Below, piece after piece: positions 2,666-7,466 of a DNA stretch of 64,000 bases (position 1 is its first letter; every line of letters starts with the position of its first letter). Where the stretch lies: contig NZ_CP043538.1 in the NCBI RefSeq assembly GCF_000364445.2, forward strand, positions 2,177,612-2,241,611, read 5' to 3'. The notes under the pieces are model-generated. The model saw only the letters and a list, made by a program, of their open reading frames with translations, ran no database searches and had not been told where the DNA came from. The translations under genes and the position numbers were made by a program. The stretch is from Methylobacterium mesophilicum SR1.6/6. GTDB taxonomy: Bacteria; Pseudomonadota; Alphaproteobacteria; Rhizobiales; Beijerinckiaceae.

Positions 2666-3784
2666 ATGTACGTGGCCGTGAAGGGCGGCGAGGCCGCCAT
2701 CGACAACGCCCACCGCCTCCTCGCCGAGGCGCGCCGGGGCGACCCCGCCGTGCCGGACCTCTCGGTCGCGCAGATCCGCGAGCAGATGGCGCTGCTGGTC
2801 GACCGGGTCATGACCGAGGGCTCGCTCTACGACCCCGACCTCGCGGCGCTCGCCCTCAAGCAGGCCCGCGGCGACGTGGTCGAGGCGGTGTTCCTGGTCC
2901 GCGCCTACCGGACGACGCTGCCCCGGTTCGGGACCTCGGCGCCGGTGGAGACCGGCGCCATGGCGGTGGAGCGGCGGGTCTCCGCCACCTTCAAGGATCT
3001 GCCGGGCGGGCAGGTGCTCGGGCCGACCTTCGACTACACGCACCGGCTGATCGATTTCGCGCTGGCCGCCGGGGAGGATGGAGAGGGCCCCGTCGAGACC
3101 GCCGCCGAGGCCGAGCCGCGGGCCGATGCCGGATATTGCCCCCGGGTCACCGACCTGCTGGCGCAGGACGGTCTGATCGAGCCCTCGCCCCAGGAGGATG
3201 GCGCGCCCGTCGGCGACCTCACCCGCGAGCCGGTGGATTACCCGGCCGACCGGGCCCTGCGCCTCCAGGCCCTCGCCCGGGGCGACGAGGGCTTCATCCT
3301 GAGCCTCGCCTACTCGACCCAGCGCGGCTACGGCCGCACCCACCCGTTCGTCGGCGAGATCCGGGTCGGCGAGGTGGCGGTGGCGTTCGTGCCGGAGGAG
3401 CTGGGCTTCGCGGTGCCGCTCGGCCGGGTCCGGCTCACCGAGTGCCAGATGGTCAATCAGTTCAAGGGCTCGGGGGCGGCGCCGCCGCAATTCACGCGGG
3501 GTTACGGGCTGAGTTTCGGGCAGAGCGAGCGCAAGGCCATGGCGATGGCCCTCGTCGACCGGGCGTTGCGCGCTGAGGAACTCGGCGAGCCGGTGGCGAG
3601 CCCGGCCCAGGACCAGGAATTCGTCCTGGCCCATTGCGACAGCCTCCAGGCGACTGGCTTCGTCGAGCACCTGAAGCTGCCCCACTATGTCGACTTCCAG
3701 GCCGAGCTGGAACTGGTTCGCCGGCTACGCGCCGAGTTCGCGCGGAAATCCGAATTCGTCGAGATGCAGGAGGCCGCGGAATGA
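2666..3784 (+). CDS. phnI: C-P lyase core subunit PhnI (nucleosidase)
   Basis: PhnI (372 residues) is the nucleosidase subunit that displaces adenine from ATP or GTP and, with PhnG, PhnH and PhnL, forms alpha-D-ribose-1-phosphonate-5-triphosphate. The N-terminal MYVAVKGGEAAIDNAH, the central RRVSATFKDLPGGQVLGPTFDYTHRL and the late TRGYGLSFGQSERKAM and HCDSLQATGFVEHLKLPHYVDFQ segments are strongly conserved family features. It begins 3 bp after the phnH stop. Its stop overlaps the ATG of phnJ as ATGA, the arrangement used for translational coupling. Confidence 0.95.
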   Translation: MYVAVKGGEAAIDNAHRLLAEARRGDPAVPDLSVAQIREQMALLVDRVMTEGSLYDPDLAALALKQARGDVVEAVFLVRAYRTTLPRFGTSAPVETGAMAVERRVSATFKDLPGGQVLGPTFDYTHRLIDFALAAGEDGEGPVETAAEAEPRADAGYCPRVTDLLAQDGLIEPSPQEDGAPVGDLTREPVDYPADRALRLQALARGDEGFILSLAYSTQRGYGRTHPFVGEIRVGEVAVAFVPEELGFAVPLGRVRLTECQMVNQFKGSGAAPPQFTRGYGLSFGQSERKAMAMALVDRALRAEELGEPVASPAQDQEFVLAHCDSLQATGFVEHLKLPHYVDFQAELELVRRLRAEFARKSEFVEMQEAAE

Positions 3785-4844
3785 GCGCGACGCACACGGT
3801 TCTCCCTCCCCCCTCTCCGGGGGAGGGTGGCCCGCGGAGGGGGTCGGGTCGGGACGTAGTCCCGCAAGAGGGGCAGCGCGACGATGTGGGTTTCGGCTCC
3901 CGGCGCGAGCTTTCCGGACACGTCGCTCCCCTCTCCCGACCCCTGCTGACGCAGGGGCCACCCTCCCCCGCAGAGGGGGAGGGGGAGAAGCGGAGCCGAC
4001 CGCCCCGCAATCCGGCTACAACTTCGCCTATCTCGACGAGGGCACGAAGCGGATGATCCGCCGGGCCATCCTCAAGGCGATCGCGGTGCCGGGCTACCAG
4101 GTGCCCTTCGCCTCCCGCGAGATGCCGATGCCGTACGGCTGGGGCACCGGCGGCGTGCAGGTCACGGCGGCGATCCTCGGCCGGTCGGACGTGCTCAAGG
4201 TCATCGACCAGGGCGCCGACGACACCACCAACGCGGTCTCGATCCGCCGCTTCTTCGCAAAGACGTCCGGCGTCGCCACCACCACGCGCACCACGCAGGC
4301 GACGGTCATCCAGACCCGCCACCGCATCCCCGAGACGCCGCTGACCGAGGGCCAGACGCTGGTCTACCAGGTGCCGATCCCCGAGCCGCTGCGCTTCCTC
4401 GAACCCCGCGAGACCGAGACGCGGCAGCTCCACGCGCTGGCCGAGTACGGCGCCATGCACGTGAAGCTCTACGAGGACATCAGCCGCCACGGCCACATCG
4501 CCACCACCTACGCGTACCCGGTGGAGGTCGCCGGCCGCTACGTGATGGACCCGTCGCCGACGCCGAAATTCGACAATCCCAAGATGGACGATTGCCCGGC
4601 GCTCCAGCTCTTCGGCGCGGGCCGCGAGCGGCGGATCTACGCGGTGCCGCCCCACACGCGGGTGCGCAGCCTCGATTTCGAGGACCACCCGTTCCGCGTG
4701 CAGGAATTCACGCATCCTTGCGCCCTGTGCGGGGCGCGCGGCCACTACCTCGACGAGGTGGTCACCGACGATGTCGGCGGCCGGATGTTCATCTGCTCCG
4801 ACACCGACATCTGCGAGACCCGCGTCGCGGAGGCGGCCCGATGA
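3781..4844 (+). pseudogene. phnJ: phnJ (C-P lyase radical-SAM subunit) interrupted by a 188-bp element
   Basis: PhnJ is the Fe-S radical-SAM enzyme that breaks the C-P bond. The body from about 4011 (SGYNFAYLDEGTKRMIRRAI) to 4844 is intact and conserved, including the Fe-S region with CALC and a C-x5-C pair (ICSDTDIC) near the end. The native ATG (3781, coupled to phnI) is followed by only six further codons before a 188-bp inverted-repeat element. Removing 3801-3988 restores one frame reading MSATHTVAEPTAPQ-SGYNFAY. With the element, the ATG frame ends at 4056 and the body is in another frame, with no ATG, GTG or TTG between 3781 and the conserved start. The only in-frame ATGs are 3687 (inside phnI) and 4053 (which would drop conserved residues). 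It may be a recent loss of function, or may be rescued by frameshifting, or contain a one-base sequencing error. Confidence 0.85.
3801..3988. repeat. 188-bp inverted-repeat element inserted in phnJ
   Basis: The ends are long imperfect inverted repeats: the first ~33 bp (TCTCCCTCCCCCCTCTCC then GGGGGAGGGTGGCCC) mirror the last ~35 bp (GGGGCCACCCTCCCCCGC then AGAGGGGGAGGGGGAGA). The middle is also partly palindromic (GGGGTCGGG and AGCGCGAC on one side, GTCGCT and CCCGACCCC on the other). It has no protein-coding homology I recognise and no clear target duplication. The composition matches the 'gggagggtggccc' type of intergenic repeats in Methylobacterium. Both the ATG frame and the downstream PhnJ frame are free of stops across it, reminiscent of palindromic elements that insert in coding genes. 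As RNA it would form a very stable hairpin inside the phn transcript. Confidence 0.8.
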
Positions 4845-5614
4845 GCGCACCGCTCCTCTCCGCGCACGGCCTGACCAAGGCCTACGGCAGCCGGCTCGCC
4901 TGTGCCGGCATCGACCTCGACGTCACCGAGGGCGAGGTGCTGGCCATCGTGGGCGAATCGGGCTCGGGCAAGTCGACGCTCCTGTCGCTGCTCGCCGGCG
5001 AGCTGGCGCCTGATTCGGGCGCGGTCCGCTACCGGCTGCGCGATGGGCAGACCCGCAGCCTCGCGGATCTCGGTCCGGCGGACCTCCGGCGGCTGATGCG
5101 CACCGATTGGGGCTTCGTCCGGCAGGATGCCCGCCAGGGCCTGCGCATGGCGGTCTCGGCCGGCGGCAATGTCGGCGAGCGGCTGATGGGAATGGGCGAG
5201 CGCCATTACGGCCGCATCCGCGGCCAGGCGCTGGACTGGCTCGGGCGGGTGGAGATCGAGGCGGGCCGCGTGGACGATCCGCCGAGCCAGTTCTCCGGCG
5301 GCATGCGCCAGCGGCTCCAGATCGCCCGCAACCTCGTCACCGGGCCGCGGCTGGTGCTGATGGACGAGCCGACCTCCGGCCTCGACGTCTCGGTCCAGGC
5401 CCGGCTCCTCGACCTGATCCGGCGCCTCTCGGCGGAACTCCGGCTCGCCGTGATCATCGTCACCCACGACCTCGCGGTGGCGCGGCTGCTCTCGCACCGG
5501 ATCGCCGTGATGCGGGCGGGCCGGGTGATCGAGACCGGCCTCACCGACCGGGTGCTCGACGATCCCGAGCACGCCTACACCCAGCTCCTCGTCTCCTCGG
5601 TGCTCGCCGCATGA
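4841..5614 (+). CDS. phnK: C-P lyase ABC-type ATPase subunit PhnK
   Basis: This 257-residue ABC ATPase has Walker A GESGSGKST (about residues 40-48), signature SGGMRQRLQIARNL and Walker B LVLMDEPTSGLD with a downstream switch histidine (VTHDLAVARLL). PhnK binds the PhnGHIJ core and couples nucleotide use to the C-P lyase reaction; despite the ABC fold it is not a transporter. The start at 4841 overlaps the phnJ stop (ATGA), so its translation is probably coupled to that gene, which matters because phnJ is interrupted. Confidence 0.93.
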   Translation: MSAPLLSAHGLTKAYGSRLACAGIDLDVTEGEVLAIVGESGSGKSTLLSLLAGELAPDSGAVRYRLRDGQTRSLADLGPADLRRLMRTDWGFVRQDARQGLRMAVSAGGNVGERLMGMGERHYGRIRGQALDWLGRVEIEAGRVDDPPSQFSGGMRQRLQIARNLVTGPRLVLMDEPTSGLDVSVQARLLDLIRRLSAELRLAVIIVTHDLAVARLLSHRIAVMRAGRVIETGLTDRVLDDPEHAYTQLLVSSVLAA

Positions 5615-6318
5615 CTGCGCTCCTCACCTTCCGGGACGTCGCCAAGAGCTTCACCCTGCACCTGCGCGGCGGGATCGTGCTGCCGGTGGTCAGCGGCGTC
5701 AGCCTGTCCGTGGAGCCCGGCGAGTGCGTGGTGCTGGGCGGCCCGTCGGGAGCCGGCAAATCTTCGCTCCTCAAGATGGCCTACGGCAATTACCGCTGCG
5801 ACGCGGGCGCCATCCTGGTCCGCGACGGCGACGCGGTCGTCGACGTCGTCCGGGCGGACCCGCGGGCGGTCCTGGCGCTGCGGGCGCGGGTCATCGCCTA
5901 CGTGTCCCAGTTCCTGCGGGTGATCCCGCGGGTCGCCGCCCTCGACGTGGTCGAGGCCGCCGGCCGCGAGGGCGGGCTCGACGCCGAGACGGCGCGCGCC
6001 CGGGCCAGGGACCTGCTGGCCCGGCTCAACCTGCCGGAGCGGCTCTGGGGCCTGCCGCCGGCCACCTTCTCGGGTGGCGAGCAGCAGCGGGTCAACATCG
6101 CCCGCGGGTTGATCGCCGACCGGCCGCTGCTTCTGCTGGACGAGCCCACCGCCTCCCTCGACGCGCAGAACCGCGCGGTGGTGGCCGACCTCGTACGCGA
6201 GAAGCTGACGGCCGGAGCTGGCGTGCTCGGCATCTTCCACGACAGCGAGATGCGCGATGCTGTGGCGACTCGGGTGGTCGACGTCACCCGCTTCGCACCG
6301 CACGCCCGGGCAGCCTGA
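5611..6318 (+). CDS. phnL: C-P lyase ABC-type ATPase subunit PhnL
   Basis: PhnL (235 residues) is the second ABC ATPase of the C-P lyase system. The N-terminal KSFTLHLRGGIVLPVVSGVS is typical of PhnL and distinguishes it from PhnK. Walker A GPSGAGKSS, signature SGGEQQRVNIARGL, Walker B LLLLDEPTASLD and the FHDSEMRDAVATR tail are all present. The start at 5611 overlaps the phnK stop by 4 bp, so a longer frame running back into phnK is disregarded. Biochemically it is required with PhnG, PhnH and PhnI for the first step on phosphonates. Confidence 0.93.
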   Translation: MTALLTFRDVAKSFTLHLRGGIVLPVVSGVSLSVEPGECVVLGGPSGAGKSSLLKMAYGNYRCDAGAILVRDGDAVVDVVRADPRAVLALRARVIAYVSQFLRVIPRVAALDVVEAAGREGGLDAETARARARDLLARLNLPERLWGLPPATFSGGEQQRVNIARGLIADRPLLLLDEPTASLDAQNRAVVADLVREKLTAGAGVLGIFHDSEMRDAVATRVVDVTRFAPHARAA

Positions 6319-6329
6319 GGACCGACGCG

Positions 6330-7466
6330 ATGGACGATTTCATCATCGAGAACGCGACCCTGGTCCTGCCCGACCGGGTGCAGCGCGGCTGGCTCGCGGT
6401 CTCCGACGGGGCCATCGCGGAGATCGGCGAGGGCCGCCCGCCCGCCCGCGGCCTCGATCTCGGCGGCGATCACCTGATTCCCGGCCTGATCGAGCTGCAC
6501 ACCGATCACCTGGAGAGCCACTACGCGCCGCGCCCGAAGGTGCGCTGGCACCCGCTCGGCGCGGTCCTGGCCTACGACGCGCAGATCACCGCCTCGGGCA
6601 TCACCACGGTGTTCGACTCCCTGCGTGCCGGCAGCGATCCCGACGGCAGCGGCCTCGGCTCCGAGCTGGAGCAGCTCGCCGGCGCCATCGCCGCCGCCCG
6701 GGACCGGGACCTGTTCCGGGCCGAGCACTTCACGCACCTGCGCTGCGAATTGCCGTCCACCGACGTGCTCGACACGGTGGCGGAGTTCGTGGCCCGCTAT
6801 CCCGTCGGGCTGATCTCGCTGATGGATCACACCCCGGGCCAGAGGCAGTTCCGCGACATGGCGAAGTACTACACGTACGCCACCCGCGGCGGCCGGCCGA
6901 TGGACGAGATCCGCGCCAACACCGAGCGCAAGATCCGCGACGGCCAGGCGCTGAATGCGCGGAATCGCCCGGCCCTCGTTCACTTCGCGCGGGAGATGAA
7001 CATCCCGCTGGCCAGCCACGACGACACCACCCTGGCGGACGTGGAACTGGCGGTCGGCGAGGGCGTGCGGCTCGCCGAGTTCCCCACTACCCTGGAGGCG
7101 GCCCGGGCCGCGCACGGGCGCGGCATCACCGTCATGATGGGGGCGCCCAACCTGATCCGCGGCGGTTCGCATTCCGGCAATGTCGCGGCGCTGGCGCTGG
7201 CCGAGGCCGGCCATCTCGACATCCTGTCGTCGGACTACGTGCCGGCGAGCCTGCTGATGGCGGCCTTCCTGCTGCCCGAGCAGGCGCCGTCGATCACGCT
7301 CCCGGAGGCGCTCGCCACCGTCACGGCCAACCCCGCCCAGGCCACCGGCCTGACCGACCGCGGCGCCTTGCAGACCGGCCTGCGGGCCGACCTCGTGCGC
7401 GTGCAGCTCGCCGAGGGCGTGCCGGTGGTGCGCGAGGTCTGGCGCACCGGGCGGCGTGTGGCCTGA
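6330..7466 (+). CDS. phnM: Ribosyl-phosphonate triphosphate diphosphatase PhnM
   Basis: PhnM (378 residues) is an amidohydrolase-superfamily enzyme that removes pyrophosphate from alpha-D-ribose-1-phosphonate-5-triphosphate, producing the PhnJ substrate. Metal-ligand motifs are visible: HTDHLESHYAPRP (about residues 57-70), the FDSLRAG segment, LMDHTPGQRQF, ASHDDTTL, and the late LSSDYVPASLL aspartate. The start at 6330 gives family length and lies 11 bp after phnL. The stop overlaps the phnN start. Confidence 0.95.
   Translation: MDDFIIENATLVLPDRVQRGWLAVSDGAIAEIGEGRPPARGLDLGGDHLIPGLIELHTDHLESHYAPRPKVRWHPLGAVLAYDAQITASGITTVFDSLRAGSDPDGSGLGSELEQLAGAIAAARDRDLFRAEHFTHLRCELPSTDVLDTVAEFVARYPVGLISLMDHTPGQRQFRDMAKYYTYATRGGRPMDEIRANTERKIRDGQALNARNRPALVHFAREMNIPLASHDDTTLADVELAVGEGVRLAEFPTTLEAARAAHGRGITVMMGAPNLIRGGSHSGNVAALALAEAGHLDILSSDYVPASLLMAAFLLPEQAPSITLPEALATVTANPAQATGLTDRGALQTGLRADLVRVQLAEGVPVVREVWRTGRRVA

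Follow-up and report, generated by a model that had tools for sequence, protein, structure and literature searches.

Results

A palindromic element in the seventh codon of phnJ

PhnJ is an essential subunit of C-P lyase. In the window, the whole 64,000-nucleotide stretch of Methylobacterium mesophilicum SR1.6/6 DNA that was analyzed, the gene lies between an upstream gene that we take from its place in the operon to be phnI and a downstream gene that we likewise take to be phnK; the other phn names are assumed in the same way (Table 1). The end of phnI (...GAATGA) overlaps the phnJ ATG at 3781, forming an ATGA overlap with the phnI stop codon, and a palindromic element starts 20 bases past this ATG. 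The conserved body, which begins with GYNFAYLDE at 4014, has E. coli PhnJ (PDB 4xb6, E 4.9e-150) as its closest solved structure, bearing out the name that the first-pass annotation had given the gene; M. fujisawaense PhnJ is 98% identical.

The annotation had described the interruption as a 188-bp palindromic element in codon 7, and this is confirmed by the inverted arms, the fold and the family matches presented below. The two arms are each 30 nt long and 90% complementary, and the 188-nt strand folded as RNA reaches -139.4 kcal/mol (z -7.8), a value that none of 200 shuffles equaled. Omission of 3801-3988 gives, when read by hand, MSATHTVAEPTAPQ-SGYNFAY, the continuous phnJ that had been predicted. 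With the element in place, 233 nt (mod 3 = 2) separate the phnJ ATG from GYNF, in agreement with the earlier description of an ATG frame and a body lying two frames apart, and between them there is no ATG, GTG or TTG in the frame of the body. The frame opened by the phnJ ATG crosses the element and meets a stop at 4056.

Table 1. Features of the phnJ locus in the window and Pfam-supported genes elsewhere in this genome that contain the element
Feature	Positions	Strand	Remarks
Palindromic insert, bounds of the first-pass annotation	3801..3988	.	188 bp
Element core, ends of the CCCTCC...GGAGGG family	3804..3983	.	180 nt at this locus; 163-190 nt among the 31 copies that show both usual ends
Left inverted arm	3804..3833	.	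30 nt
Right inverted arm	3955..3984	.	1 nt short of the usual family arm
phnJ start codon and the frame it opens	3781..4056	+	runs through the element
Conserved phnJ body, GYNFAYLDE to stop	4014..4844	+	without internal stop
phnI, intact	2666..3784	+	presumed name, by operon place
Next gene, presumably phnK	4841..5614	+	presumed name, by operon place
L018, DUF4130-UDG protein (uracil-DNA-glycosylase-like)			element in frame near start
L020, 2-oxoacid dehydrogenase E2			divided in linker: Biotin_lipoyl / E3_binding + 2-oxoacid_dh
L003, penicillin acylase (Penicil_amidase)			divided near C-terminal part

Both frames are open across the element, and the sole body-frame ATG, GTG or TTG located 5' of the body, the ATG at 3687 within phnI, opens the frame of the body. 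These features could allow PhnJ to be made despite the out-of-frame element, either by ribosomal frameshifting or from another start. We consider such expression extremely improbable, as a start at 3687 would lie within phnI and add 109 residues to the protein, and such a device is unneeded in 65 of the 66 phnJ genes surveyed below.

A dispersed repeat family

We read the insert as a non-autonomous palindromic repeat from a family spread across Methylobacterium. This genome contains 82 matches to the element, whole or partial, and matches were found in 102 of 110 Methylobacterium genomes. In the 31 copies that have both usual ends, the core extends from CCCTCC to GGAGGG, and the few bases outside it vary from copy to copy. 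In 21 of these 31 copies the core measures 1 mod 3, so that it does not by itself keep the frame. The lengths group at 163, 172, 181 and 190 nt, that is, in nine-nt steps.

Gene placement and arm deletions were counted on 18 distinct full-length copies of this class, designated class A, that were taken from L001-L030, with copies below about 175 bp left out of both counts. Twelve of the 18 are intergenic and six reach into genes. Among copies from other genomes, 33 of 40 are intergenic and seven, counted without single inspection, reach into gene ends. The repeats of three further classes, B, C and D, are also dispersed, with at least 80-87 matches per genome in four genomes searched with a joint query of the three classes.

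A search for Y1_Tnp gave no match in this genome at E 1e-3, while the control search was positive in 5 of 14 genomes, and a RAYT-driven REP system was rejected on this basis. Direct target duplications of 2-9 nt beside the core ends were found in none of the 31 copies, a count that refers to the core boundaries only. With neither a transposase match nor a duplication, we infer the mobility of the element rather than observe it. A known RNA family was likewise rejected, since no Rfam family scored above its gathering threshold (best match 25.9 bits versus 41).

Lengthened phnJ genes in other Methylobacterium genomes

PhnJ was detected in 66 of 111 genomes, and the 5' end was read in all 66 phnJ genes. 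Every one of them starts at a junction at which it overlaps phnI by ATGA or GTGA. Forty-seven have short starts of 9-57 nt, and 19 are lengthened, defined as 75 nt or more. The start is in frame with the body in 65 of the 66 genes, the window being the sole exception. The comparison with relatives that the first-pass annotation had proposed turned up what is apparently the same insertion in the phnJ genes of genomes G085 and G036, which have the same insertion edges as the window copy and are in frame.

Seventeen of the 19 lengthened genes (16 of 18 without the window) can be assigned to one of the four repeat classes. Class A is found in the window and at loci L032, L044 and L040, class B in four genes, class C in five and class D in three, and one gene contains a class-D fragment; no class could be assigned to L033 and L035 with confidence. 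Compared with shuffles, 16 of the 19 lengthened 5' ends give the better fold, with z of -3.5 or lower, the exceptions being L033, L035 and L161. The right arm at L032 and L044 contains an extra palindromic stretch, CCCAAGTCGGGC...GCCCGAGATCGG, which is absent from the window copy and looks like a repeat entered by another repeat.

Among the 18 lengthened genes that are in frame, 11 distinct lengths occur, every one of which is a multiple of 3. The chance of this is (1/3)^11, or about 6e-6, a figure that is rough because phnJ alleles are related. The lengthening might in principle stem from a single old insertion that has since diverged rather than from repeated invasion, as one class and site are common to several species. 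A quick phnJ tree, moreover, has low resolution, with 22 of 62 inner branches open, and allele exchange may explain some of the changes it implies. We nevertheless judge a single origin to be very improbable, because the four classes differ in sequence and are each dispersed in genomes, and the tree needs at least 15 class changes, as well as 8 changes between lengthened and short forms. Repeats of all four classes, the class-A element included, have been inserted among the first codons of phnJ in several species.

A 3'-terminal element in phnJ was also considered and rejected, the body to the stop codon measuring 275-282 residues in 30 of 30 loci checked. In the PhnJ proteins P0022, P0028, P0046 and P0092, from Methylobacterium and other Hyphomicrobiales, the C-terminal tails resemble translated palindromic repeats by eye, as does the N-terminus of P0046.

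Constraint on the added peptide

Within classes A-D, pN/pS is 0.72-0.76 in the extension and 0.05-0.14 in the body, and the start of the short phnJ forms gives a value of 1.05 based on few changes. A ratio of 0.72-0.76 in a frame that is kept indicates that the added residues hardly matter. Extended PhnJ proteins are listed in public protein sets (P0001, P0002, P0004, P0006 and P0011). An AlphaFold2 model of P0011 built with 32 sequences has pLDDT below 50 nearly throughout the extension, but the model is of low quality overall (mean 54.5, below 50 up to residue 145, far inside the body), and a reading of the extension as disordered was therefore dropped.

Compared with six relatives, the body of the window gene has a pN/pS of 0.06-0.12, as between intact genes, which fits a sequence error or a recent break alike. 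The first-pass annotation had proposed that the split disables phnJ and with it phosphonate use. The broken frame stands, while the proposed loss of phosphonate use finds no support in a body that has no stop and is as constrained as in intact genes.

Class-A copies in unrelated genes

Class-A copies in this genome reach into genes at L001 (phnJ), L003, L006, L011, L018 and L020. Pfam supports the three genes besides phnJ that are listed in Table 1 and gave no match for L006 or L011. The dehydrogenase E2 gene forms one open frame in all four relatives read, and that of G007 has the element in its linker; this reading covers the loci of other genomes in which the motif was found (4 of 13; L223, L225, L226 and L227), with L224 and L228-L235 outside it. 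At L020:1226-2637 the element splits E2 into a lipoyl frame and an E3-binding/catalytic frame that meet in an ATGA overlap. If real, the split at L020 would be a case of gene fission in which a domain linker is the breakpoint and the two frames are coupled.

The penicillin acylase gene keeps its frame in 11 of 11 relatives, and that of G010 contains a class-A element at the identical point; in G013 a class-C-like peptide is seen by eye. For the UDG gene, which was checked less closely, an in-frame element is present in G010 as well and was recognized by eye in G003, G004 and G008. A second, partial copy of the penicillin acylase gene is located elsewhere in this genome (L348, G000:C1:3676674-3677471) and is 98% identical over 264 residues. 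In-frame copies in unrelated genes make apt the parallel that had been drawn with palindromic elements that invade genes.

Sequence error or real deletion

In this genome phnJ, E2 and penicillin acylase show the same one-base shift of frame at the element copy, and in all three the right arm is 1 nt short of the usual length. The window copy would be the in-frame type minus one nucleotide in the right arm. The alternative offered by the first-pass annotation, an in-frame insertion that lacks one base in the G/C runs, has more support than a plain split, given that the other 65 of 65 phnJ genes are in frame and 18 of them are lengthened.

The sequence appears to be of good base quality in general. 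With a codon-usage model, 57 coding segments were recognized in the window, and 14 of 14 same-strand frame changes coincide with a proper stop and start. The 53,258 coding nucleotides of the window contain 46 G/C runs of 5 or 6 without a frame break; such intact frames at G/C runs elsewhere imply that an error, if any, is limited to hairpins. In a synteny frame check of relatives' ORFs against the first 20 kb, 20 of 32 were matched, and one was matched in two frames. The two-frame match falls at the phnL/phnM overlap (6209-6322 and 6273-7463) and was read as a stretch preceding the start codon.

Arms with a deletion number 8 of 36 in this genome, compared with 1 of 30 in G010 (p 0.033), 1 of 52 in G085 (p 0.003) and 7 of 45 in G007 (p 0.57), or 9 of 127 in the pooled controls (p 0.025). 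An earlier comparison, 8 of 36 versus 2 of 80 (p 0.0013), was biased in that its controls were the best-scoring copies elsewhere.

In this strain phnJ could have been disabled by a recent one-base deletion in the right arm, and E2 and penicillin acylase by slips of the same type, a history that we regard as possible but doubtful. The genome is assembled as one contig with a completeness of 99.99, the 57 coding segments of the window show no other frame break, and the proportion in G007 suggests that arm deletions may be real. Set against these points, three genes are broken alike in one assembly and none among the relatives read, and there are more arm deletions here than in G010 or G085; the body is also constrained as in intact relatives, although a break of recent date would not be visible there. 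A sequencing or assembly error in the G/C hairpin is in our estimation somewhat likelier than a real one-base deletion. We lean to an error because the frames of the relatives are under selection against breaks and because the three like breaks occur in one assembly.

Discussion

Taken together, these data lead us to propose, with reasonable though not full confidence, that palindromic repeats invade genes of Methylobacterium and are retained there when in frame, and that the frame break in the window reflects one missing base in the right arm, for which an error is the likelier source. The repeats would land at many places, and genic copies would survive at flexible tails, linkers and loops, in frame only, with the added peptide carried as a passenger under weak constraint. 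The start codon of phnJ stays 5' of the insert, so that translation coupled to phnI could still start there and run through the element. A more conjectural reading, to which we assign a rather low probability, is that free-living Methylobacterium makes protein sequence in the manner of the Rickettsia elements, with unrelated repeat classes repeatedly entering a few permissive sites, to which they are guided rather than only filtered there, and giving new Pro/Gly/Ser-rich tails and linkers. The sites in question would be the phnJ start at the phnI ATGA overlap, the E2 linker, the penicillin-acylase loop and the udgX-like start.

In-frame palindromic elements are already known from Rickettsia, Wolbachia and enterobacteria. 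The Rickettsia palindromic elements (RPE) lie in frame within protein genes (reviews PMC2229807, PMC10969869), and coding palindromes have also been described for Wolbachia. Those elements are dispersed, roughly 100-190 bp long, and located in frame in unrelated genes as well as between genes. The Methylobacterium family resembles them in being dispersed with a strong palindromic fold, and in its in-frame copies in phnJ of relatives, in E2 of G007 and in penicillin acylase of G010, whereas the window copy is out of frame. It differs in that the host is a free-living, high-GC Methylobacterium and that several classes occupy one gene site; the likeness to RPE is one of description. The enterobacterial small mobile repeats RU-1/ERIC, RU-2/YPAL and RU-3 likewise contain open frames and are fused in frame to annotated genes, at 24 loci (PMC2759123). 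Those fusions involve many single loci, whereas in Methylobacterium one conserved operon gene has been entered repeatedly.

REP/BIME sequences with RAYT are also dispersed, G/C-rich palindromes, but the Methylobacterium unit is longer (163-190 nt core) and no Y1_Tnp gene was found in this genome. MITEs share the terminal inverted repeats seen here and have no transposition coding of their own, but they differ from the present family, in which 0 of 31 copies have a target duplication beside the core ends. MiniMdi3 of Methylobacterium extorquens, a MITE of about 400 bp (PMC2680597), differs in its length and its relation to ISMdi3. It was the only comparable Methylobacterium element found in the one open-access library searched, subscription papers being mostly outside this search, and no report of in-frame palindromic repeats in the genus was found there.

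G/C hairpin repeats within genes call for caution, as they can yield one-base pseudogenes, false or true, in assemblies. More than 60 phnJ-bearing species genomes of Methylobacterium have the C-P lyase subunit either without an insert or with one of several classes. This variety would constitute a natural experiment on the tolerance of proteins for selfish DNA and on the conversion of such DNA to protein sequence.
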